From contig JAHHHY010000003.1 of assembly GCA_019359125.1 (NCBI GenBank), positions 62,001 to 126,000 of the forward strand: a stretch of DNA of 64,000 bases, given 5' to 3'. The notes beneath the pieces are model-generated. The model did not search any database. It was not told where the DNA came from and saw only the letters and a list, made by a program, of their open reading frames with translations. Made by a program: the position numbers and the translations under genes. The stretch comes from Pleurocapsa minor GSE-CHR-MK 17-07R (GTDB lineage: Bacteria > Chloroflexota > Anaerolineae > Aggregatilineales > Phototrophicaceae). Shown here piece by piece: positions 29,969 through 63,304 of the stretch (position 1 is its first letter; the number at the start of each line of letters is the position of its first letter).

Positions 29969-30032
29969 GGGTAGGGGCGGCGCACGACCTTATATTCGTC
30001 AATTCGCACAGGCCATATTACCAACCTGTATT

Positions 30033-40356: not shown

Positions 40357-41271
40357 ATGAAAGTTGACTCACTCATGCAAAACGGCAGCCTGAAGCCTTC
40401 CAATACCCAGTATCTCAAGCAACCGCTGCCCGCCGATGCCGCCAACGTGCGCGTCGCCACCGGCCCGCTGGATCGCAAACTCCCGTATGTCATCGAGCTG
40501 CGCGTGGTGGGTACGCCCAGCATCATGCAGAAGCAGGTCAAGACAGAGATGCTGCTGGGCCGTGCCGATGCCGAGAAAAACGTCAATCCGGAAATCGACC
40601 TGACGCCCTTCGACGCCTTCAACACGGGCGTCTCGCGCAAGCATGCCATCCTGCTGGTGCGCGACGAGCGCCTGTTTCTCAAAGACCTGGCCAGCACCAA
40701 TGGCACCCGCCTGAACGGCCTGTCGTGCGAGGCTGAAAAAGAGTATCGCGTGCGCCACGGCGACGAAATTATGCTCGGCCGCCTGCGCCTGCAAGTGCTG
40801 TTTGCCGTCACCCCGGTGGTGGAAGGCGGCACCCCGCTGTATGGCACGCTCAAGCCGGTTGATATCCCCAAGGTGGGCAAGGGCCAGCATATCCTGGTGG
40901 TGGAAGATGACCGCGAAGTCGGTGCTGTCTTCCGCATGGCGCTGGAATATGCCGGGTTCACCGTCACGCTGGTGGACACCGTGACCAAGGCACTCAATGT
41001 CGTCTTCCAGATTCAGCCGGACGCGATGGTGCTCGACCTGATGCTGCCGGATATGAACGGCCTCGATCTGCTGCAATATCTCAAGAAGCAGGCCATGCCG
41101 AAGCGCATCCCGATCCTGGTGGTCAGCGGCGCGACGGGCGGCTTCCAGATGAATCAGGCGCTGGAGGCAGGCGCAGAGCGTTTCCTGGGAAAGCCGGTCG
41201 CCGTCGAGAAGCTGGTCGAAGCTGTGGCCGACGTGCTCAAGACAGCCAAGCAGACGACGGGCGGCACGTAA
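40357..41271 (+). CDS. FHA domain-response regulator receiver fusion
   Basis: The protein has 304 residues. The FHA domain (about 45-150) has G68-R69, S93-R94-K95-H96 and N115 (STNGT), the residues that read phosphothreonine. The receiver domain (about 176-295) has acidic D184/D185, phosphoacceptor D227 in VLDLMLPDMNG, S257 and K279. There is no DNA-binding or enzyme output domain. It may connect Ser/Thr kinase signals with two-component phosphorelay. No kinase gene is adjacent; an atypical kinase is encoded about 6.5 kb away. Confidence 0.92.
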   Translation: MKVDSLMQNGSLKPSNTQYLKQPLPADAANVRVATGPLDRKLPYVIELRVVGTPSIMQKQVKTEMLLGRADAEKNVNPEIDLTPFDAFNTGVSRKHAILLVRDERLFLKDLASTNGTRLNGLSCEAEKEYRVRHGDEIMLGRLRLQVLFAVTPVVEGGTPLYGTLKPVDIPKVGKGQHILVVEDDREVGAVFRMALEYAGFTVTLVDTVTKALNVVFQIQPDAMVLDLMLPDMNGLDLLQYLKKQAMPKRIPILVVSGATGGFQMNQALEAGAERFLGKPVAVEKLVEAVADVLKTAKQTTGGT

Positions 41272-41433
41272 GCACCCACGTTCAAAAGACAACTTCGCCC
41301 CTCACTCCACTCAGCCACTGCATGGAAGAGGGGATGACTACTCTTTGCGAGTTTTCGAACGGTGGCACACGTCTTCTACCCCTCGCCACATAACAGACCT
41401 CTGACTGAGCGGGAAAACAGGATATTTACGGCC

Positions 41434-41564
41434 GGGCGCCTCGCGAGGCGCCCCTACAAGTCCAACCTCATGGGGTAAGCGTCCATACTCGGGTTATTTG
41501 GCATCAAGACAAATCTAAACGACCTGCCAGGTACGCCGCTGTAGGGGCGCATCGCGATGCGCCC
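41434..41564. repeat. Bipartite REP/BIME-like element A
   Basis: The left unit is a perfect 20-bp palindrome (41434-41453) followed by CTACA. The right unit is TGTAG (41540-41544) followed by a 20-bp palindrome (41545-41564). The two units are inverted with the GTAG feet facing inward across 81 bp, total 131 bp. It fills the convergent gap 41272-41616, which holds no gene. The left hairpin is identical to the right hairpin of element B. Confidence 0.85.
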
Positions 41565-41616
41565 GTCAGCTTTACATAGAAGCCAACCTTAACGACACCC
41601 CTGAAGATCATCCCCC

Positions 41617-42399
41617 TCAATCCATCGGATACAGGCTGCACCCGCCATCCACCAGCAGCACCGACCCCGTCATATAGCGCGAGGCGGGGCTGCACAGGAA
41701 TACGAACGCGTCGGCCACGCTCTCGGGCGACTGCAACTCGCCCAGCGGGATCGCCTTGCTGGCGCGGCGTTTATAGTCCGGCTCGGTATTCCACTGCTTC
41801 AGCGCCATGCCTGCGCCCACAATGCCCGGCGCGACCGCGTTAGCGCGAATCCCCTTGTCGGCCAGTTCACGGGCAAACGTGCGCATGAGCATATTCATGC
41901 CTGCCTTGCTGGCGCTGTACGGGCCAATCTCCGGCCATGGCACCGCCCCCACCCACGACGTCGTGAAAATGAGCTGGCCATGGATTCCCTGCGCGATCAT
42001 GCGCCGTGAGGCCGCCTGCCCCAGCAGGAAAGCCGCCTTCAGATTCACATCCAGCATGTTGTCCCAGTCGGCTTCGGCCACATCCACCAGCGGCGCCGCC
42101 TTCACGACTGCGGCATGGCACAGCGCCGTCGTCACCGGGCCGAAATACGATTCGGCCTTGTCGAGCAATGCCTCCACCTGCAACTTTTGCGTCAAATCAC
42201 CGTAACCATAGCGGGCCTGACTCGGGTCGAAGCCTGCTTCCAGTAATGCAGACTCACCTTCAGATACGGGCACGATATCGTTGACGGTGACGCGTGCACC
42301 ATGGCGCACCAGCGCGGCGACCACCGCCATCCCGATCGCGCCCAGTCCGCCGCTGATGACGATATGCTGCCCGTCCAGCGCATCTACTGTAAATGTCAT
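41617..42399 (-). CDS. Short-chain dehydrogenase/reductase
   Basis: A 260-residue classical SDR. The cofactor loop is SGGLGAIGMA. The catalytic residues are N119, S148, Y161 and K165 (IGPYSASKAG). A PGIV motif follows, and the end is SVLLVDGGCSLYPMD. The VNDIV stretch after strand 2 favours NAD over NADP (Asp at the end of strand 2). The substrate is unknown; sugar or polyol dehydrogenases of this type are common. The gene has its own transcript as far as can be seen. Confidence 0.9.
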   Translation of the reverse strand: MTFTVDALDGQHIVISGGLGAIGMAVVAALVRHGARVTVNDIVPVSEGESALLEAGFDPSQARYGYGDLTQKLQVEALLDKAESYFGPVTTALCHAAVVKAAPLVDVAEADWDNMLDVNLKAAFLLGQAASRRMIAQGIHGQLIFTTSWVGAVPWPEIGPYSASKAGMNMLMRTFARELADKGIRANAVAPGIVGAGMALKQWNTEPDYKRRASKAIPLGELQSPESVADAFVFLCSPASRYMTGSVLLVDGGCSLYPMD

Positions 42400-42508
42400 G
42401 GGGTTATGTCCTCACAGAAATGTGTATAAGTACAGCAATTGTTCGCACTGACTTCATATTCGCCTAGTATACTTCCCGCGTGAACTGACTGCACGCACTG
42501 AGAGAGCT

Positions 42509-45031
42509 ATGACGACATCATTGACGCAGGGTCTGACTGAAGCCGAAGTTATTGCGCGCCGCCAGCGCGGGCTGGGCAACAATGTCGAAGCGGCCACCAG
42601 CCGCAAGCTGAGCGACATCATCCGCCAGAATGTGCTCACGCTGATCAATATCATCCTGTTCACGCTGGGCGTGATGCTGGTCGCGCTCGGCTATGTGGGC
42701 GATGCGGTCGTCAGCGTCGGCCTGATTTTCTTCAACAGCACCATCGGCATCATTCAGGAAATCCGCGCCAAGCGCCAGCTCGACAAAATCGCGCTGCTGA
42801 CGCGGCCGCGTGTTTCGGTCATGCGTGAGGGCATCGAGAAGATCGTTGACCCCAGCGAGATCGTGGTGGGCGATATCCTGGTAGCCCATGCCGGCGACCA
42901 GATCGTGGCCGACGGCGTGGTGGTGGGCGAAGGCCGCATCGACATGGACGAGAGCCTGCTGACCGGCGAGAGCGACCATATCCCCAAGAAGCAGAGCGAC
43001 GAGGTGCTGTCGGGAAGTTTCGTGGTCAGCGGCAGCGCGCTGGTGGAGGCCACCAAAGTGGGCGCCAGCAGCTTCGCTAACAAGCTGACGAACAGCGCGC
43101 GCGCCTATCGCAACCCACGCACCCCGCTGCAAAAAGATGTCGATCTGGTCTTTCGCCTGCTGCTGGGGCTGGCCATCTTCATCGGCCTGCTGATGTTCAT
43201 CAGCGGCTTCCTGCAGGCGATTCCGCTGGCACGCGGCGTGCGCATGGCCACCGTGATCGCGGGCATCGTCCCCAACGGCCTGTTCCTGATGGTGATCGTG
43301 GCCTATGCGCTGGGGGCGCTGCGCATCGTGCAGCGCGGTGCGCTCATCCAGCAGCAGAATTCCGTCGAAAGCCTGAGCAACGTCACCGTGCTGTGCATGG
43401 ACAAGACCGGCACGCTGACCGCCAACAAGATCGCCTATCACGATGTCATGCCGCTGGAGGGTCGTTCCCGCGCCGAAATCGAGCGCACGCTGGGTATTTT
43501 CGCGTCCAGCGCCAGCGCGCGCAATCGCACCAGTGAGGCCATCGCCGCCGCGCTCAGCCTGCCGCCCGTGCGTCCCGCCGACGAAGTCCCGTTTTCCAGC
43601 GCGCTCAAGTGGTCGGCGCTCGCCTTCCATCCGTCCGGCGACCTGGACGGCGTGTATGTGCTGGGCGCGATGGAAATGCTGGCGGCCCAGCTTCCCGATA
43701 TCAGCGCGCTTGATGCCCAGACCGGCTCGTGGGCGCAAGACGGACTGCGCGTGCTGGTATTTGCCCATGCACCCGGCGTATATGCCCTGCATGACGCGCT
43801 GGACCAGCCCGTGCTGCCCGAAAAACTCACGCCGATCGCGCTGATCGCGCTATCTGACGAACTACGCGCAGAGGCCGCCGACACGATTGCCGCGTTCGCC
43901 AAGTCTGGCATACGACTGAAAGTCATCAGCGGCGACAACCCGCACACGGTGGCCGCGCTGGCCCGGCGTGCCGGCCTGCCCGGCGACCTGACAGTGATTT
44001 CCGGCATCGATCTGGCCAGCATGAGCGACAGCGACCTGGACGTGGTGGTGGAAGAAACGACCGTGTTTGGCCGCATCACGCCGGACCAGAAAGAACGGCT
44101 GGTGGACGCGCTGCGCCGCCGCGGGCATTATGTCGCCATGATGGGCGACGGCGTGAACGATGTGCTCTCGCTGAAGAAGGCTAACCTGGGCATCGCCATG
44201 CAGAGCGGCAGCGCGGCCACCCGCGGCGTGGCCGACATGGTGCTGCTGAACGACTCGTTCGCCGCCCTGCCGCCTGCGTTTCTCGAAGGCCAGCGCATCG
44301 TCGCCGGCATGCGCGATATCCTCAGCCTGTTCCTGACGCGCGCCATCTTCACCGCCATCATGATCCTGTCGGTGGCGGTCATCGGCATCGGCTTCCCGTT
44401 CGTGCCGAAGCACACCACCCTGCTGACCTTCTTCGCGGTCGGCATCCCGGTGCTGTTCCTGGCCATCTGGGCGCGACCCGTTCAGGCCAGGACGCGCCTG
44501 CTGAAAAGCATCACCCATTTTGTCAGCGGCGGCGCGGTATTCGTCGCCCTGTTCGGCCTGCTGACGTATGTCGGCTTCTTCGCCTATGGCGCTGCCCAGG
44601 CGCTGGAGATTCCGTATACACCAGAGAATGTGGCGCTGTTCCGCGACCAGATGAACCTGGATACGCCTGTGACCGGCCCCGATGTCTTCATCTTCGAGTA
44701 CGCCACAGCGACAGCGCGCACCGCACTCACCATCTTCAGTGTGCTGACCGGCCTGCTGCTGGTCATCTTCGTCGAGCCGCCGTATCAGTTCTTCGTCGGC
44801 GGCGATGAACTCAGCCCGGACAAACGGCCGATGATCCTGGCGTTCGCCATCACGGCTGGCTTCTTCGGCATCCTGCTGATCGAGCCATTGCGCGACTTCT
44901 TCGAGATGCTGCCCATGCCGCTGGTGAGTTATGTGATAATTATCGGATGGGTGGTATTGTGGATGTTCACCGTTCGCCAGGCCTGGCGCAAGCGCTGGGT
45001 GGAACGGTTCCTGAATATCAGCTTTTCATAA
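42509..45031 (+). CDS. Cation-translocating P-type ATPase, CtpE-like
   Basis: An 840-residue primary transporter. The actuator loop is DESLLTGESD, the phosphorylation motif is DKTGTLT (Asp about 298), and the hinge is MGDGVNDVLSLKKANLGIAM. Membrane helix 4 carries IVPNGLF (about 254-260), and SGSAATRGVADMVLLNDSF follows the hinge. These are features shared with mycobacterial CtpE, a calcium importer, and not with heavy-metal pumps. There is no N-terminal metal domain. Ten helices are predicted, four after the hinge. A Ca2+-like substrate is a family inference. Confidence 0.88.
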   Translation: MTTSLTQGLTEAEVIARRQRGLGNNVEAATSRKLSDIIRQNVLTLINIILFTLGVMLVALGYVGDAVVSVGLIFFNSTIGIIQEIRAKRQLDKIALLTRPRVSVMREGIEKIVDPSEIVVGDILVAHAGDQIVADGVVVGEGRIDMDESLLTGESDHIPKKQSDEVLSGSFVVSGSALVEATKVGASSFANKLTNSARAYRNPRTPLQKDVDLVFRLLLGLAIFIGLLMFISGFLQAIPLARGVRMATVIAGIVPNGLFLMVIVAYALGALRIVQRGALIQQQNSVESLSNVTVLCMDKTGTLTANKIAYHDVMPLEGRSRAEIERTLGIFASSASARNRTSEAIAAALSLPPVRPADEVPFSSALKWSALAFHPSGDLDGVYVLGAMEMLAAQLPDISALDAQTGSWAQDGLRVLVFAHAPGVYALHDALDQPVLPEKLTPIALIALSDELRAEAADTIAAFAKSGIRLKVISGDNPHTVAALARRAGLPGDLTVISGIDLASMSDSDLDVVVEETTVFGRITPDQKERLVDALRRRGHYVAMMGDGVNDVLSLKKANLGIAMQSGSAATRGVADMVLLNDSFAALPPAFLEGQRIVAGMRDILSLFLTRAIFTAIMILSVAVIGIGFPFVPKHTTLLTFFAVGIPVLFLAIWARPVQARTRLLKSITHFVSGGAVFVALFGLLTYVGFFAYGAAQALEIPYTPENVALFRDQMNLDTPVTGPDVFIFEYATATARTALTIFSVLTGLLLVIFVEPPYQFFVGGDELSPDKRPMILAFAITAGFFGILLIEPLRDFFEMLPMPLVSYVIIIGWVVLWMFTVRQAWRKRWVERFLNISFS

Positions 45032-45046
45032 CCTAGGCGAGGACAT

Positions 45047-46294
45047 ATGGCGATTCGCGTGCTGGCGGGCAAACGCATCATTCTGGGGGTCACCGGCAGC
45101 ATCGCCTGTTACAAGGCCGTCGACCTGGCAAGCAAGCTGACGCAGGCGGGCGCGCTGGTGGACATCATCCTGACCGACGCCGCGCAGCAGTTCGTGACGC
45201 CGCTCACGTTTCAGGCGGTCACCGGCCGCCCGGTGTATACCACGCTGTGGGCGCCCAGCCCCGGCGATGGCCTGCCCACCCATATCGCCCATGTCGGGCT
45301 AGCCGAGGGCACCGACCTGCTGATGGTCGCGCCGGCCACGGCCCATACGCTGGCGAAGCTGGCGGTTGGCCTGGCCGATGACCTGCTGGGCGTGACCGCG
45401 CTGGCGGCCACCTGCCCGCTGCTGGTCGCCCCGGCGATGGATGGCAGCATGTATGCCCACGCCGCCGTGCAGGCCAATCTGGCCACGCTTCAGTCGCGCG
45501 GCGCGATGGTGATTCAGCCCGAAGCAGGCCGATTCGCCAGCGGACTAACCGGCATTGGCCGCCTGCCGGAAACAGCCGCGCTGATGGGGCATATTCGCAT
45601 GGCGCTGGGGCGCGTTAACGGCGTGCTTGCAGGGCAGCACGTGATTGTGACCGCCGGCGGCACGCGCGAGGCTATCGACCCGGTGCGCTTTATCGGCAAT
45701 CGCTCCAGCGGCAAGCAGGGCTATGCGCTGGCGCAGGCCGCGCTGGACGCGGGCGCACATGTGACGCTCATCAGCAGTGCGGGCGCGGGCCTGTCCGTCC
45801 CGACTGGCGCGGCGCTCGTGCCGGTCACCAGCGCAGCCGACCTGAAAGCGGCAGTGCTGGCCCATGCCGTGCCGGGCACCATCCTCATCATGGCCGCCGC
45901 CGTGGCCGACTTCAAGCCAGCGGCGCAGGCCGAGCACAAGATCAAGAAATCATCGGACAATGCAGAGGGTTTCGCGCTCCAGCTCACGCGCACAGACGAT
46001 ATCCTGGCAGCCGTCAAAGAGACCCGGGACGCGGGATTTGGCCCGCGGCTGGTGGTCGCGTTTGCCGCCGAAAGCCGCGACCTGATCGCCAATGCCGACG
46101 ACAAGCTGCGCCGTAAAGGGGCCGACCTGCTGGTGGCCAATGACATCAGCGCGCGCGATGCCGGCTTCGAGACCGACACCAACCGCGTCGTCATCCTGCG
46201 GCCGGGCGCCGAGCCGGAACACATGCCCCTGCTGAGCAAGTCGGAAGCCGCCGAAGCGGTCATCCGCCGGGCCGCCGCCCTGCTGGGCGAATAG
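45047..46294 (+). CDS. coaBC: Bifunctional phosphopantothenoylcysteine decarboxylase/phosphopantothenate-cysteine ligase
   Basis: Two steps of coenzyme A synthesis in one 415-residue protein. The CoaC half binds FMN: LGVTGSIACYKAVDLASKL, and HIAHVGLAEGTDLLMVAPAT with the catalytic His. It has PAMD where PAMN is usual, and the flap reads FASGLTGIGR without the usual Cys. The CoaB half (about 190-415) has VTAGGTREAIDPVRFIGNRS, SSGKQGYALAQAAL, AAAVADFKPA and the Lys of HKIKKSS. It starts 16 bp after the ATPase gene, with a good ribosome site (GAGG). Confidence 0.93.
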   Translation: MAIRVLAGKRIILGVTGSIACYKAVDLASKLTQAGALVDIILTDAAQQFVTPLTFQAVTGRPVYTTLWAPSPGDGLPTHIAHVGLAEGTDLLMVAPATAHTLAKLAVGLADDLLGVTALAATCPLLVAPAMDGSMYAHAAVQANLATLQSRGAMVIQPEAGRFASGLTGIGRLPETAALMGHIRMALGRVNGVLAGQHVIVTAGGTREAIDPVRFIGNRSSGKQGYALAQAALDAGAHVTLISSAGAGLSVPTGAALVPVTSAADLKAAVLAHAVPGTILIMAAAVADFKPAAQAEHKIKKSSDNAEGFALQLTRTDDILAAVKETRDAGFGPRLVVAFAAESRDLIANADDKLRRKGADLLVANDISARDAGFETDTNRVVILRPGAEPEHMPLLSKSEAAEAVIRRAAALLGE

Positions 46295-46315
46295 CACGCG
46301 TACGGCAAGCGGTAG

Positions 46316-46345
46316 CTGACACAGGCCGCCAGCGTCCTGTATAAT
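46316..46345 (+). promoter_or_regulatory. Promoter of the Thr/Pro-linker protein gene
   Basis: CTGACA (46316-46321) and a perfect TATAAT (46340-46345) are 18 bp apart, 40 bp before the ATG at 46386. Confidence 0.65.
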
Positions 46346-46385
46346 ACCGGGGTTCTATGGCCTGAAAGACGAGCATCACATCCTT

Positions 46386-47585
46386 ATGCCAGACTACGAC
46401 TCGACCAACCTTGACGATACGCAGGGGCACAAGCCGGTCACCGTGCCGGACAGCACCCCGTTCGATGACCGCCCGATCACATCCGCCCGCGAAATCATCC
46501 CCGATGACGACGACGAGATTCGCCCGTTTGTGCGCGAGGGCGCGCCGCGCGGCGGCTGTGGCCTGACCGGCATTATCCTGGTGATGCTGGGCATCTTCAG
46601 CGTGATTATCGTCGCGCTGGCGGGTGCTGCCGGCTGGACAACTGGCGGCAGGCAGGCCGCTGTCAACAGCACGGCCACGCAGAATGCCGCTATCGCCGAG
46701 CAGGTCGGCCGTATCCCGACCGATCTCGCGGATGGCAATCTGGTGCTGCTGGAAGCGCGCATCCAGTTCCTGGCCACGCTGACGCCGGGCGTCGCCGGCA
46801 TGAACGATGTGATGGCCACAGCCACATCGTTGTATATGACGCTCCAGCCTACGGCCACCGCCACGCCGACATCGACCGCCACACCCACAGCCACCGCGAC
46901 GGCCACGGCGACCCTCGATCCCAATCTGCCCTCGCCCACGCCCGGCCCGAACTATGACCTGGCCGCGCTGCTGTCTGAGGCGCAGGGCGAATTTGTCGCC
47001 GGAAACTATGAGGAAGCCGCGGCACTGGCAGAAGCCATCACGTCGATTGATCCCGGCTTTGAGACCGGCACCGTGCGCGGCCTGCTGACGGATTCGCTGA
47101 ACACGGTGGCGCGCAATTACTACAATGCCATGCAGCCCGCGGCGGGCAACCAGATCGTTGGCCGCATCCAGAGCCTCGGTCTGCCGCTGGCCGAAGGCCT
47201 GGCCTATGAGCGCGATGTAGGGGAAATTTACCTGAACGCGATCAGCACCATCGGCATCAGCTATCCGCAGGCCATCAATGCCTTACAGCAGCTCATCGGT
47301 TACGGGCAGGGGCGCTACTACAACGAGGCGGTCAACCTGCTCTATCGGCAGTACATCGCCTACGGGGACGCGCTGGCGTTCGATCCGGCCTTCGGCCAGT
47401 GTGCGGCCGCGCAGCAGTATCGCAGTGCCTTCAGCCTGACCGGCGGCGGCGAGGCCGGTGGCAAGCTGACCACCGCCGATGCCCTGTGCGCCAGCGCCAC
47501 GCCGACGCCCGATCCATTGCTGGCAGGGACGCCCGGCGTGCCCCCGCCAGCAGGCGTCGCACCGATCGGCCAGCCCGGCGGGTGA
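46386..47585 (+). CDS. Membrane-anchored protein with Thr/Pro linker and helical-repeat domain
   Basis: The protein has 399 residues. An acidic cytosolic N-terminus (1-58) is followed by one helix (LTGIILVMLGIFSVIIVALA, about 59-80), a short region, then a linker of alternating Thr, Ala and Pro (TATATPTSTATPTATATATA, about 152-185). A helical domain like a TPR array follows (EAQGEFVAGNYEEAAALAEA; YYNAMQPAAGNQIVGRIQSL). It is probably exported at the C-terminus. Function unknown. It shares this layout with the proteins at 47806 and 61939, so it may belong to an envelope assembly common in Anaerolineae. Confidence 0.75.
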   Translation: MPDYDSTNLDDTQGHKPVTVPDSTPFDDRPITSAREIIPDDDDEIRPFVREGAPRGGCGLTGIILVMLGIFSVIIVALAGAAGWTTGGRQAAVNSTATQNAAIAEQVGRIPTDLADGNLVLLEARIQFLATLTPGVAGMNDVMATATSLYMTLQPTATATPTSTATPTATATATATLDPNLPSPTPGPNYDLAALLSEAQGEFVAGNYEEAAALAEAITSIDPGFETGTVRGLLTDSLNTVARNYYNAMQPAAGNQIVGRIQSLGLPLAEGLAYERDVGEIYLNAISTIGISYPQAINALQQLIGYGQGRYYNEAVNLLYRQYIAYGDALAFDPAFGQCAAAQQYRSAFSLTGGGEAGGKLTTADALCASATPTPDPLLAGTPGVPPPAGVAPIGQPGG

Positions 47586-47609
47586 GCGCAAAAGCATTAA
47601 ACACGCAGA

Positions 47610-47741
47610 GGGCGCGTCGCGACGCGCCCCTACAACCGTTTATTCGGCTGGTTGCCATGGACTGTCCAAACGCCTAATTTCACACAACCCTGTTGATGAT
47701 CAAAGGGATTGTGTTTTGTAGGGGCGCCTCGCGAGGCGCCC
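47610..47741. repeat. Bipartite REP/BIME-like element B
   Basis: The left palindrome is at 47610-47629 followed by CTACA; the right unit is TGTAG (47717-47721) followed by a palindrome (47722-47741). Total length is 132 bp with an 82-bp centre. The layout and length equal element A, but the centres are not clearly related. It lies between convergent genes. Confidence 0.85.
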
Positions 47742-47805
47742 TTAATCATTCTGAATGGGGGCAAAGCACGCAGGCACGCGAGATTTATTCGCTGTGAACC
47801 CGCGC

Positions 47806-50800
47806 CTAGCGCAGCGTGACAGACCACTCATCCACATACACAATTACGCCGCCGTTGTGCACGAACAGCACCGGCACGACCGGCACGTCATCGCCCACAA
47901 ACGCGACCGGATTGCCCAGCGGCTGGCGGTTGACCAGCACCTGAACCGTGTCGTTGGTCAGGTTGCGCACGATCTCGACGCGCAGCGGGTCGTCGGTGCG
48001 GGCGCGCTGGCTAACGGTCGTCAGGGTGTCGCCGTTTTGCAGGCTAAGCTGGATCAGCTCGCCCTGGCTGCCCTGAATCTGCACACGCACGCCCACCCGC
48101 TGCGCCGGATCGTCCACGCTTTGCAGCAGCACGCCGAAGTACACCGCGTCGTCCACCACCAGCGGCGGATTAAACGTTTGCAGGTCGAGCAGCGCGTCCA
48201 TGCGGATGATGCGCGAGGGTGCATTCAGCCCATACAGGCCGGTCAGGAAAGCGGCTTCCGGGCCGACGAACAATGTGTCGCCCTCGCCCAGCGCGCCCCC
48301 GCCTGTTCCCAGTCGCCAGTTGTCAGAGCCGGCCGTCACGGGTGAGAACGCCTCGACATCCCAGCTGGGGCTGACGAGCTGTGCGGCCAGCGCCAGCAGG
48401 TCCTGCTGACCACGCAGGCCACCCGGTGGCAGCGTCGGCGCAGGCGTATTGGTGGCCGTCGCGGTATTGGTTGCCGTGGTGGTATTCGTCGGCGTGCGCG
48501 TGGGCGATACAGTGCGCGTGAAGGTCTGGCTGGCGGTGAAAGTCGGTGACGGCGTATCGGTATCGCGCGGCGCGATCGTCGCCAGCACCGACAGCGGCGT
48601 CGGCGTGACATTGGCCTGCGTGGGCACCAGCGTATCGATGCTTTCAGCATCCAGCGTGGCCACCGCCTGGCCCGCCGGATCGTCGGTCACTTCAGCGGTG
48701 TTTGCCGCGACAGCAACCTGCGTGCCCGCATCCGGCGCAGTCGTCTCAGGCGTATTGCGCGACCCAACCGCGACCGCGACCACAATCGCGATCACCAGAA
48801 TCAGGATCAGCACCGGGCTCATGCCGCGGCGGCGGGCTTTCTGCGCCGATTTGGGGGGTAAAGGCTCATCGGCAGCGCGGCGCGATGGCAGGGCGGCCTG
48901 TTCCTCGGCCTCGCTGATGCGCGGCGTCGGCTCATCGGTTGGCGGCGCGGGAAACTCCGGCGAGTATTCGGTCACCGTGTACCAGTGCCGATAGAGTGCA
49001 TAGGCCGGATGCCGGTCGATGAACATCGCGCCGAACAGCTCATTCAGCCGGGCCAGGCGCGCACTGCGGCGCAGCGACCGGTCCGAGAAGGCCGCTGAAA
49101 AGCTTTCGTACATGTCGCGCCACTGGCGCAGCGTGCCGGTATAGGCATCGCCCAGCGTGCGGGCGGTCACCTCCACCTGAAACTGATGCGCGACAGACAG
49201 TATTTCTGGCGGTGTGGCTGGCTGCGCGTCAACTGCCTGCGCCAGCCGACGCGCGTTGCCATGCAGCTCTGCGGCAGTGCTGAGCAGCGTCATCAGCCAA
49301 GAGCGATAGGCCGTCAGCGTGATATCGCCGGCCTTTTCCACTTCGTCGATGGCCTTGAGCGCGTTTTCGATGCGCGACCCGGCATTCCGGAACTCGCCAT
49401 CGGTCCAGTCACGCACGGCTGCTTCCAGCTCGCGCACGCTGAGCACAGCCGGGGCCAGCACTTTCGTCTGGCTGTTCTGCTCCAGCGTCCGGCGGATGTT
49501 TTCCAGATGCGGCAGGCTGGCCGCCGAATTAATCTTCGCCAGCTCACGGGCGGCCGCTTCCAGGTCTTTGCGCTGCTGCACATAATCTTCCAGCATACGC
49601 GTTAAGGGGTGACGGCCGTTGGCATCGACGCCTGTCTTGCCTGACACATCGCGCCAGAACAGCGCGTCTTCCATATTGCCTTCGCGGGCATCCAGCACGC
49701 CATACAGCACCGCGTTGACAAAGAAGATGCGTACGGGGGCCGTGCCCAGCCGCTCCAGCGGGTCAATCAGCCCGCGATTCATCGCCCGCAGATAGGTGTC
49801 TTTGCCCGGCATCTGCCCGGCGAAATGGTCGCGCAGGCCGATTTCCTCGGCGCTGTACAGCATCTCGACGCTGGCCAGCGCCTTCTGCGAGCTGGCGGTA
49901 TTGGTCACGCCGCCGCGATCGACCCACTCACGCGTGTGCTGCGAAAGGGCATGCAGGCGGCGCGCTGCTTCGCGTTCCACATCGGTGCGCGCCAGGTCAG
50001 ACGCCTGCGCGCCCATGCGTTCGGCCTCGACCAGCCGACCGCGGTCGAAATGTTCCCAGCCGTCAGACAGCGCCTGCCCCAGCGCAGGATGCAGCGCGCC
50101 GCGCTCGACATGCACGGCGCTGCTGACGACCGAGCGCAGCTGCGCCACCCAGGCGGCCAGCGACGGGCTGACGATGCTCACGCCATTCGAGACGCGTTCC
50201 AGCGCGGCGATGGCGCTGGAACGACTGCCCAGCACGGCCGCCTCGCCGTATTCTCCCCACGCTTCAGCGGCCTCGCTCAGCCCGGCGACGATTCCGTTCA
50301 GGCGCTCATCCGTCAGGCCGTTGGCAAATGGCACCAGCGCGGTATGCGCCCGCGTCAGCCAGGAGGCGACATCGCCACCGTCGGGCGCGGGAATAAAGCT
50401 CTCGAATTCAGCCAGCAGCTGATACAGATCGTCCAGCTTGTGGGCCAGCGCATCCCAGGCCGGGGCGCCCGCCACGATTTCACGCGAGTTATCCAGCGCG
50501 CCCAGTGCCTCAATCGGGTTGGTCGCGGCCTGCTTGCCGATGACGTGCATGTTATCGGCCAGCGCCATCGCCGCATTGGTCGCGCGGGTCAGGGCAGACA
50601 ACGGCAGCATCTTGTTCGGAAGCTGATACTCCGCGTTCACGGCCTCCAGGCTGCGCATCAGGTTATTCAGCCGGTCGGTCACCATCCGGAAGCCATTGCG
50701 CAGGTCGTTGGCCGTGCTGGAGGTCTCGCCGGTCAGCTTGTCCAGCGAGGCATTGATTTCGTTCAGCATCGAGCGCTGTTCGCCCACATGCACGCTCTGC

Positions 50801-52158
50801 CCGGCCAGCGTGGTCAGCGCCACCTGCAAACGGAAAAGATTCGGCCGCAGCAGCATGATTTCGCCCACATGGGCCGAAATGCGCTCGGCCATCAGCCATT
50901 GCAGCGACTGGGCGCGATGGTCGCCATCGGTGTCCATTACCAGCACGCGGGTGGCCTCGGCCGGGTCGGCCTCAAACAGCAGGCTGATGGCCTCCTGCAC
51001 GGCAGGAAGCTGCACACTCGCGTTGTCGTCTTCGCTCAGCAGCGCGGCCCAGTCCATCAGAATGGTGATGACGACGGCGGCGCTGCCGCGTGCGCGCGGT
51101 TGCAGTTCTTCCAGCACGCTTAAAGCGCGCTCCCAGCTGCCACTTTCCAGATAAATGCGCGCAGCATCCAGGTCAGCCGACACCTGCAAGTCGCTGATGC
51201 GGGCGTTGACTTCGGCCTCCAGCGCGCGCGTGGGCGGATGGCCAGGGTCCAGCGCACTCACTGGGTCGAGAATGGCCAGCAGCGAATACAGCTCGTCACG
51301 GCTGAGCTCGCGGCGCAGACGGTCCTGCACGCGGTTCAGACTGGCCGTGCGGTCGCGCTCCACCGGCGTGCGATACGCGTTCAGTTCGGCGCGCAGCTCG
51401 CGGATGGTGTGATAGCGATAGCGCGGATTGGGGTGTGCCGCCCGGCTGATGATGGCCTGCAAGCGCGTGTGCAGGCGGCCGGTATCTTCGCCGAAGTCCA
51501 GGCGGAAATCATCGGTCGCGTTCTGGGCCGCGCTGCGCGGTATCTCCACACGCCCGCCGCCGGTCACGATGAAAAACAGCAGCTCGCCCACCTGATAGAT
51601 GTCGCTCTGGCGGCTGACGCCCTGCGGCGAGGCTTCATCGCCTTCCAGAAAGACCGCGTTGCCCCAGTCGATCACCTTCAGGCGATAGTCGTCGCGTGAC
51701 CAGAACAGGTGCTTGGCGTCGGCATCGTTGTAGACGATGTCGCGCTCATGGGCCGCTTCGATCAGCCCCAGCAGCGCATCCATGATGACCAGCATTTCCA
51801 TCTCTGGCATGCGCCCGCCAGACGACGACAGCGCCAGCACGGTGTCGGCGACAATCTCGCCTTCAGCGCGCTCAATCACGATATATTGATGCGAGACGCC
51901 GCCCACGGTGAACTGGCCGCTGCCCAGCAGCGCGCACAGCGATGGCTGTCCGGCCAGCTTTTGCAGGGCTTTGCGCTCTGTCAGGATGCTGACTTCCTGG
52001 CCAGCACGAATGGGGGGCGCGTCATTCGGGGCTGGCCGCTTGATGACGACCGGACGCTCTGAATCACGGGTATCTACCGCACGCAGCGTCTCGCCCGAAC
52101 GACCGCGCGGGTAAATGAGATCGTAGCGATATCTGTTGTCAAACAAACCTTCAGCCAT
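47806..52158 (-). CDS. Giant atypical protein-kinase-like membrane protein
   Basis: The protein has 1450 residues. Residues 10-260 are a kinase fold: ATP-binding K40 (VVIKRPA), E61 region of helix C, a catalytic loop VYNDADAKHLFW with D145, and D164-W-G in place of DFG. The normal Lys two residues after the catalytic Asp is Asp (D147), and the metal-binding Asn is His (H150), so activity is doubtful. Residues 300-1080 are long helical regions. A single helix (about 1110-1130) and a Thr/Pro linker (about 1135-1245) lead to an exported beta-rich C-terminal domain (1250-1450), possibly a lectin or glucanase-like sandwich. Confidence 0.8.
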   Translation of the reverse strand: MAEGLFDNRYRYDLIYPRGRSGETLRAVDTRDSERPVVIKRPAPNDAPPIRAGQEVSILTERKALQKLAGQPSLCALLGSGQFTVGGVSHQYIVIERAEGEIVADTVLALSSSGGRMPEMEMLVIMDALLGLIEAAHERDIVYNDADAKHLFWSRDDYRLKVIDWGNAVFLEGDEASPQGVSRQSDIYQVGELLFFIVTGGGRVEIPRSAAQNATDDFRLDFGEDTGRLHTRLQAIISRAAHPNPRYRYHTIRELRAELNAYRTPVERDRTASLNRVQDRLRRELSRDELYSLLAILDPVSALDPGHPPTRALEAEVNARISDLQVSADLDAARIYLESGSWERALSVLEELQPRARGSAAVVITILMDWAALLSEDDNASVQLPAVQEAISLLFEADPAEATRVLVMDTDGDHRAQSLQWLMAERISAHVGEIMLLRPNLFRLQVALTTLAGQSVHVGEQRSMLNEINASLDKLTGETSSTANDLRNGFRMVTDRLNNLMRSLEAVNAEYQLPNKMLPLSALTRATNAAMALADNMHVIGKQAATNPIEALGALDNSREIVAGAPAWDALAHKLDDLYQLLAEFESFIPAPDGGDVASWLTRAHTALVPFANGLTDERLNGIVAGLSEAAEAWGEYGEAAVLGSRSSAIAALERVSNGVSIVSPSLAAWVAQLRSVVSSAVHVERGALHPALGQALSDGWEHFDRGRLVEAERMGAQASDLARTDVEREAARRLHALSQHTREWVDRGGVTNTASSQKALASVEMLYSAEEIGLRDHFAGQMPGKDTYLRAMNRGLIDPLERLGTAPVRIFFVNAVLYGVLDAREGNMEDALFWRDVSGKTGVDANGRHPLTRMLEDYVQQRKDLEAAARELAKINSAASLPHLENIRRTLEQNSQTKVLAPAVLSVRELEAAVRDWTDGEFRNAGSRIENALKAIDEVEKAGDITLTAYRSWLMTLLSTAAELHGNARRLAQAVDAQPATPPEILSVAHQFQVEVTARTLGDAYTGTLRQWRDMYESFSAAFSDRSLRRSARLARLNELFGAMFIDRHPAYALYRHWYTVTEYSPEFPAPPTDEPTPRISEAEEQAALPSRRAADEPLPPKSAQKARRRGMSPVLILILVIAIVVAVAVGSRNTPETTAPDAGTQVAVAANTAEVTDDPAGQAVATLDAESIDTLVPTQANVTPTPLSVLATIAPRDTDTPSPTFTASQTFTRTVSPTRTPTNTTTATNTATATNTPAPTLPPGGLRGQQDLLALAAQLVSPSWDVEAFSPVTAGSDNWRLGTGGGALGEGDTLFVGPEAAFLTGLYGLNAPSRIIRMDALLDLQTFNPPLVVDDAVYFGVLLQSVDDPAQRVGVRVQIQGSQGELIQLSLQNGDTLTTVSQRARTDDPLRVEIVRNLTNDTVQVLVNRQPLGNPVAFVGDDVPVVPVLFVHNGGVIVYVDEWSVTLR

Positions 52159-63170: not shown

Positions 63171-63304
63171 GGACGAGGCAGGCCTCGTCCCTACCTGTTG
63201 CCAACCCTGCGAGGAAAAACAGGCCCATTCATGCCCAGTGTCTTTACCATGGATCAGCGCGATCCGCAGCATCCGCCGATGTAGGGACGAGGCCTGCCTC
63301 GTCC
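63171..63304. repeat. Bipartite REP/BIME-like element C
   Basis: The left hairpin is ggacgaggc-ag-gcctcgtcc (63171-63190) followed by CTAC. The right unit is GTAG (63281-63284) followed by ggacgaggc-ct-gcctcgtcc (63285-63304), the exact reverse complement of the left. The total is 134 bp. The hairpin sequence differs from elements A and B, yet the feet, orientation and length are the same. Confidence 0.85.

Follow-up and report, generated by a model that had tools for sequence, protein, structure and literature searches.

A family of tail-to-tail GTAG-REP pairs with a homologous centre, very probably served by a RAYT, in the genome of Pleurocapsa minor GSE-CHR-MK 17-07R

Repetitive extragenic palindromic (REP) sequences with a GTAG foot, their dimers, their position at the 3' ends of genes and the REP-associated tyrosine transposases (RAYTs) that accompany them have already been described, with Chloroflexi among the phyla named (PMC3733652, Di Nocera et al. 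2013). For REPINs (REP doublets forming hairpins), the RAYT is thought to act in trans, and paired changes have already been noted (PMC3116915). The TnpA-REP proteins that have been studied take single-stranded REPs as substrate, need both GTAG and hairpin and cleave mostly at CT, and in one case a mismatch in a perfect stem impaired cleavage (PMC8266576). TnpA-REP subclass 2.4, or RAYT group 4, is characterized by long canonical REPs with three G-C pairs at the stem base, by double-foot REPs and by REPs inserted in the RAYT gene (PMC6006769), and palindrome counts are available for three Chloroflexota genomes (PMC12306157). Here we describe two intergenic elements, A and B, in a 64,000-nucleotide stretch of the Pleurocapsa minor GSE-CHR-MK 17-07R assembly GCA_019359125.1 (contig JAHHHY010000003.1, positions 62,001 to 126,000; G000:C10:62001-126000 in our contig numbering), which we refer to as the window. 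They are very probably non-autonomous REP-based intergenic elements, composed of two tail-to-tail GTAG hairpins around a homologous 81-85-bp centre and served by a RAYT of the same genome, RAYT1. This reading is based on copy number, fixed architecture, the presence of RAYT1 beside copies, the hairpin class found next to its relatives, the separate constraint on each hairpin and the position at gene 3' ends; the mobility of the elements and the specificity of RAYT1 we infer by analogy.

Element A (41434-41564, plus strand) is a tail-to-tail pair of hairpins of a type termed family I, with its centre in the forward orientation. It consists of a palindrome at 41434-41453, CTACA at 41454-41458, an 81-bp centre, TGTAG at 41540-41544 and a second palindrome at 41545-41564. 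Counted with their GTAG feet, the REPs delimited by the hairpin pattern span 41434-41457 (left, minus strand, a 20-nt perfect palindrome of type CCT) and 41541-41564 (right, plus strand, type CAT), and the centre measures 83 bp between the feet (41458-41540, plus strand). Element B (47610-47741, minus strand) has the design of A with the centre in the opposite orientation: a palindrome at 47610-47629, CTACA at 47630-47634, an 82-bp centre, TGTAG at 47717-47721 and a palindrome at 47722-47741, giving a left REP at 47610-47633 (minus strand, type CGT), a right REP at 47718-47741 (plus strand, type CCT), both by the same pattern, and a centre of 84 bp between the feet (47634-47717, minus strand). 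Both elements are identified by sequence, by their place in the collection of pairs described below and by R1, a sequence-only model of the centre plus feet. The left hairpin and foot of A are the reverse complement of the right hairpin and foot of B and identical over 26 nt, so that the identity of about 26 bp between the two loci claimed in the original prediction is correct on direct reading. The family I hairpin has an 8-bp stem, a 4-nt loop and a GGG/CCC base, and the GTAG feet lie inside the pair. Each foot is unpaired and stands directly at the base of the palindrome; its columns are invariant or at least 90% conserved, with GCAG, CTAG or GTAC as deviant feet in a few copies. Outside the hairpins a CGGC tail is partly conserved, the hairpin-adjacent C being present in 50 of 60 arms.

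Within the window, GTAGGGGCG occurs five times against 0.46 expected; four occurrences are the feet of A and B, and the fifth is isolated, at 29971. Across the assembly (4.85 Mb in 23 contigs) the hairpin pattern GTAGGGGCGNNTCGCGANNCGCCC, with its N positions left free, gives 56 exact matches, and its reversed control gives none. A first collection of inward-facing pairs in the fetched stretches, allowing up to three mismatches per hairpin and taking only this orientation, contained 31 pairs, with a gap between the GTAG feet of 81-85 in 29 of them, of 22 in one and of 59 in one. Without the inward filter, the feet are inside in 26 of 28 neighbouring family I hairpins up to 160 bp apart, and the remaining two gaps (56 and 82) fall between adjacent elements. 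The genome search with R1, in which 150 of 1043 first-look candidates were scored, returned 49 matches (E up to 1), and two full elements were added later, C14:66732-66863 and C15:313367-313498, with a gap of 84 each, plus several truncated copies. The family therefore totals 33 elements in one genome, an inverted doublet with a preferred distance (foot-to-foot gap of 81-85 bp in 31 of 33). The design and positions of A and B given in the original prediction are borne out, and both are members of this family; the dozens of copies, the sharp spacer peak and the predominant pair orientation that it proposed to look for are all found.

The view that the centre sequence is not kept, also part of that prediction, is wrong, and its suggestion that distance rather than sequence matters is not supported. 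The centres are alignable once 15 of the 31 are turned round, A and B carrying opposite orientations. In leave-one-out profiles, all 28 oriented centres (one tandem duplicate and two deletion copies being excluded) score 14.0-64.4 bits against the profile of the others, compared with at most 6.5 bits for reversed centres and at most 4.7 bits for shuffles (50 each). With feet, A and B score 60.8 and 39.6 bits against the family profile R1, in which both are included, and 46.9 and 17.2 bits against a profile built without both; taken on its own, the comparison of A with the reverse complement of B is marginal, as 133 of 5000 shuffles do as well. Pairwise identity averages 0.589 over 29 centres as opposed to 0.490 for shuffles, and mean identity to the consensus is 66.8%. 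As read from the sequences, the centre is a homologous region that has diverged to about 59% identity and is inverted in B relative to A. Since the centres are homologous, equal spacing follows from descent, and the spacing itself may matter too. With a mean identity of 0.589 and, outside the tandem duplicate, a best of 0.783, the copies are either old or fast to change when set against one another. Visual inspection of some copies suggested an inner hairpin at the left edge of the centre (CNNCA-ACCNNN-TGNNG), with a register that varies from copy to copy; it is not claimed. A structured non-coding RNA gene family would also conserve its centre and its length, but is a most improbable explanation, as RNAalifold predicts no consensus base pair within the centre, the centre can face either way along the contig, and the only Rfam match is isrH over B (47483-47755, minus strand), at 21.2 bits and E 0.01 against a gathering score of 45.

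The hairpins have been kept far better than neutral decay would allow. Perfect 20-nt palindromes are present in 56 of 62 arms and 611 of 620 base pairs are intact among the 31 pairs, a set that came from the hairpin-pattern search and is biased toward intact hairpins; unconstrained decay at the rate of the centre (66.8% identity) predicts 0.07% perfect palindromes. Among extra copies found through the centre, both arms are perfect at C15:313387 and one arm each at C7:35217, C2:64013, C5:450939, C11:104483 and C16:1592, and one or few arm changes are seen at C14:66755, C11:8218 and C5:266497. The arm at the other end is absent at C5:450939, and several further copies are cut short at one end. 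In the local 8-bp stems of 28 copies, 99.6% of 448 cells are paired and 7 of 16 pairs show changes on both sides, a level reached by none of 500 shuffles and by no slid version; most of these changes fall where the search pattern allowed any base. Long-range pairing of the two hairpins in the same 28 copies shows no excess of coupled changes (2 pairs, with 495 of 500 shuffles at least as high), and 92.0% of cells are paired against 92.2% in shuffles. A strict REPIN, in which the two REPs pair into one long hairpin as the unit of selection, is accordingly improbable here: element A, the sole copy folded, does form such a hairpin in silico (z -5.9 as RNA and -6.8 as DNA), but the covariation across copies is local, and the GTAG feet lie inside the pair rather than outside. 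Each hairpin is constrained on its own, without excess coupling to its partner, and the sharing of hairpin type is not correlated with centre identity (r = -0.07).

Profile searches of the genome gave three matches to PF01797 and four to NF047646 (REP_Tyr_transpos). RAYT1 (C16:1115-1582, 155 codons, locus L038) scores 67.7 bits against NF047646 versus 30.4 bits against IS200, and carries the HUH motif as DHLH and the catalytic Y in YIDTNP. A four-row profile of RAYT1, its two nearest relatives and a further RAYT, RAYT2, matches the Escherichia coli TnpA-REP 4er8 with 2.2e-6 for the whole sequence, and phmmer with RAYT1 alone against PDB gave nothing relevant. Directly behind the gene lie two copies of the element, the first truncated and the second full. 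The match to positions 35-91 of the centre model starts nine bases past the stop codon of RAYT1 and ends in the hairpin 1645-1668, and the full element starts 82 bases beyond that hairpin, with three family I hairpins downstream of the gene in all. The genome thus encodes the RAYT that the original prediction had proposed to look for, adjoining copies of the element, and its interpretation of A and B as RAYT-linked REP pairs holds. By analogy, the hairpin with its foot would be the single-strand recognition site of RAYT1. GGGCGC at L038:1589-1594, as at the start of a left hairpin, is followed by the right half of the element; that the element arose from a RAYT-carrying one through an internal deletion was considered and is not claimed, and the piece behind RAYT1 looks instead like a truncated copy next to a full one. 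Two candidates were set aside, a weak Y1_Tnp match within the C-terminal portion of a long frame at C5:535798-536112 (L033; 24.5 bits, just above the cut-off of 23), and a gene on C4 that is an IS200 transposase by profile (81 bits). A second RAYT, of 238 codons (L144, G000:C16:236804-240983, at 1968-2684), has a double-footed REP (GTAGGGGCAAGGCATGCCTTGCCCCTAC) within its open frame.

For related genomes, the comparison set comprised the 98 genomes of the GTDB family, including that of the window. NF047646 is matched at E up to 0.001 in 65 of these and above its cut-off in 2, and such weak matches can be IS200 genes, as with the C4 gene. The exact family I hairpin class occurs in 23 of the 98, and its association with RAYTs is weak (a match in 20 of 23 hairpin-bearing versus 45 of 75 other genomes). 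The best two non-self matches of RAYT1 are in G033 (8.6e-36) and G013 (7.2e-33), whose RAYTs adjoin TCGTGA/TCGCGA hairpins of the family I class, these two loci having first been chosen for such hairpins. In the tree, RAYT1 and these two RAYTs form one clade (support 90/74; inner pair 96/87), and rows with the same or a similar hairpin loop, by hand-assigned labels, tend to group. GTAG hairpins are found within the fetched stretch at 24 of the 30 RAYT loci L114-L143, each the best of its genome, with L127 and L038 denoting one locus. Hairpins lie on both sides, at up to 450 bp, at 15 of 30 loci with a recognised frame, with 5 further loci without a recognised frame. Over 38 RAYT loci, some overlapping, there are 92 GTAG hairpins, one of them a run of N, as against 0 to 13 for seven other tetranucleotides. 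Matches of the hairpin class in G013 and G035, among those listed, are mostly single double-footed palindromes and not spaced pairs. Of 80 named records among the matches listed for this class, 52 are Anaerolineae, Chloroflexales or other Chloroflexi; the same 24-nt class is also seen, among the matches listed (L182-L261), in Cyanobacteria, Planctomycetota, Bdellovibrionales, Acidobacteria, Rubrobacter and others.

The fetched stretches also contain 59 hairpins of another large REP family, family II, for which no RAYT of its own was seen in the assembly. When the centre profile is compared with five wide-spaced family II pairs, two match clearly, at 27.6 and 27.4 bits, both in the C10:232426-232844 array, where no shuffle of 200 was reported by the profile. 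A weak match is present in the pair at C15:204719 (9.3 bits), and none in those at C15:204827 and at 63171-63304 of the window (3.8 bits). The last of these is a further element of the A/B plan: its hairpins are of family II (GGACGAGG..) and its gap is 86 bp. Hairpins of the two families can be as little as a few paired positions apart, so a switch of hairpin between them is possible by stepwise change as well as by replacement. Hairpins similar to family II also lie near or within a congener RAYT, G029:C285 (L148).

The elements are extragenic. Genes were called with a codon model trained on the window, which misses the RAYT1 gene; counting that gene would shift the element at C16:1751 from tandem to convergent. 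None of the 33 elements is inside a called gene; 17 lie between convergent genes (two of them in one gap), 14 between tandem genes, 1 between divergent genes and 1 at a contig edge, and the median distance to 49 neighbouring gene 3' ends is 62 bp. Because a circular genome has as many convergent as divergent gaps, the ratio of 17 to 1 has P = 7e-5 by a sign test. Spacers of at least 60 bp in the window are convergent in 3 of 32 cases, divergent in 5 and tandem in 24, and A and B occupy two of the three. A starts 162 bp past the end of the gene on its left (40357-41271, plus strand) and is 52 bp from the gene on its right (41617-42399, minus strand), while B is 24 bp from the gene on its left (46386-47585, plus strand) and 64 bp from the gene on its right (47806-52158, minus strand), all four genes being directed at the element. 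The 20 family II clusters are convergent in 10 cases, tandem in 7 and at an edge in 3. G+C-rich hairpins between convergent genes might be ordinary intrinsic terminators shared by both genes, and one site of a terminator scan, at 47600-47618 on the minus strand, overlaps the left hairpin of B. This explanation can nonetheless be given hardly any weight, as none of the 62 hairpins is followed, on its outer or its inner side, by a T-tract (5 or more T among the adjoining 8 bases) and the scan of 41270-47810 gives 5 sites against 3.6 in shuffles. Terminators are not known to have a conserved 82-bp centre or to come in fixed pairs.

A stronger competitor is that A and B are host 3'-end elements, old REP dimers retained for a function of their hairpins in RNA or DNA, such as a block to 3' exonucleases, insulation of convergent genes or topoisomerase binding, with transposition only as their origin. 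The placement just described, the excess of perfect arms beside centres that are 67% identical to their consensus, and the double changes that maintain stem pairing all favour it. However, promoter avoidance alone would give the same placement, and selection in place does not by itself predict that hairpin type is independent of the relatedness of the centres, or that the centre is also found with family II hairpins. We consider it a substantial possibility that falls short of an even chance. Intact hairpins around decaying centres would reflect either selection at 3' ends or a renewal process driven by the RAYT or gene conversion. Renewal in place is put forward tentatively and is rather unlikely: the centres would drift neutrally, and the hairpins would be rewritten again and again by the RAYT or through gene conversion between REPs. 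If it were true, hairpin types would change as whole units, independently of centre and partner and even to another REP family, and the REPs would be a maintained set of sites instead of a decaying trail of insertions. Evolution by gene conversion is an old idea, reportedly named in the title of a 1988 review.

For REP pairs served by RAYT1, the following sequence of events can be envisaged. A REP site would become single-stranded, during replication, for instance, or within a cruciform, and RAYT1 would bind GTAG plus the hairpin, cut at a nearby CT and rejoin the strands, and this cutting and rejoining would spread or renew REPs. RAYT1 would treat each hairpin as a separate substrate, in keeping with covariation that is local only. 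Several observations weigh against the reading of A and B as REP pairs served by RAYT1. Apart from one tandem duplicate the highest centre identity is 0.783; there are no very recent copies, and with the closest centres at 78% nothing points to activity at present. Neither excision nor insertion was observed, nor any empty site, and 14 congeners gave nothing to align as an empty site; the centre profile found no match in them among the 150 of 454-962 candidates scored per genome. The 67.7 bits of RAYT1 are below the curated NF047646 cut-off of 80, the 4er8 match is without any single stretch that passes alone, and the very long RAYT1 branch (2.74 versus a median of 0.74) leaves its position in the tree unsure. 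REPs are found only downstream of RAYT1, with no family I hairpin in the 450 bp upstream. Three of the 23 hairpin-bearing genomes have no RAYT match, among them G045, with 35 + 37 strand matches of the hairpin class, for which RAYT loss or an assembly gap is possible (85% complete, 1260 contigs).

What the family offers is a clear RAYT-REP pair and a fixed-length dimer with a homologous spacer in a probably Chloroflexota genome. The decay of the spacer is a built-in clock for each copy, against which the hairpins can be seen to be kept, separately from each other. Whether REPs are selfish, useful or under continual rewriting, a long-standing question, thereby becomes directly testable in one genome. 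A non-exhaustive search of the literature, accessible in part, found no tail-to-tail family with a homologous spacer used as a decay clock against the hairpins, and no covariation test separating local from long-range REP pairing. Linker conservation is known from the bacterial interspersed mosaic elements (BIMEs) of E. coli; compared with these, the palindromes here are perfect and without a bulge, there is one linker type, and the elements are mostly single units, not mosaics. Inverted REPs with linkers are common to both (PMC6006769). With REPINs (Bertels and Rainey 2011, PMC3116915) the family shares the inverted REP doublet as unit, a preferred spacing, and REPs that are more conserved than the spacer. 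It differs from them in showing no covariation coupling between the two REPs, and in having its feet inside, whereas those of REPINs are outside, the P. fluorescens dimers being termed head-to-head (PMC3733652). Hairpins with a GGG base, double-foot REPs and the REP within the frame of a RAYT recall subclass 2.4, although RAYT1 itself has no inserted REP and has DHLH in place of the tabulated NH[IFV]H (PMC6006769). The closest correspondence is with the GTAG-REP dimers of PMC3733652, with which the family has in common the GTAG foot, a short palindrome with alternative complementary stem residues, heterodimers, inverted pairs at a distance of 20-100 bp, a location between convergent or tandem genes, and a RAYT flanked by the same repeat. 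By that description, A and B are placed among tail-to-tail GTAG-REP dimers. The rule of thumb given there is that tail-to-tail pairs have variable spacers, whereas the spacer described here is homologous in the 28 copies tested.

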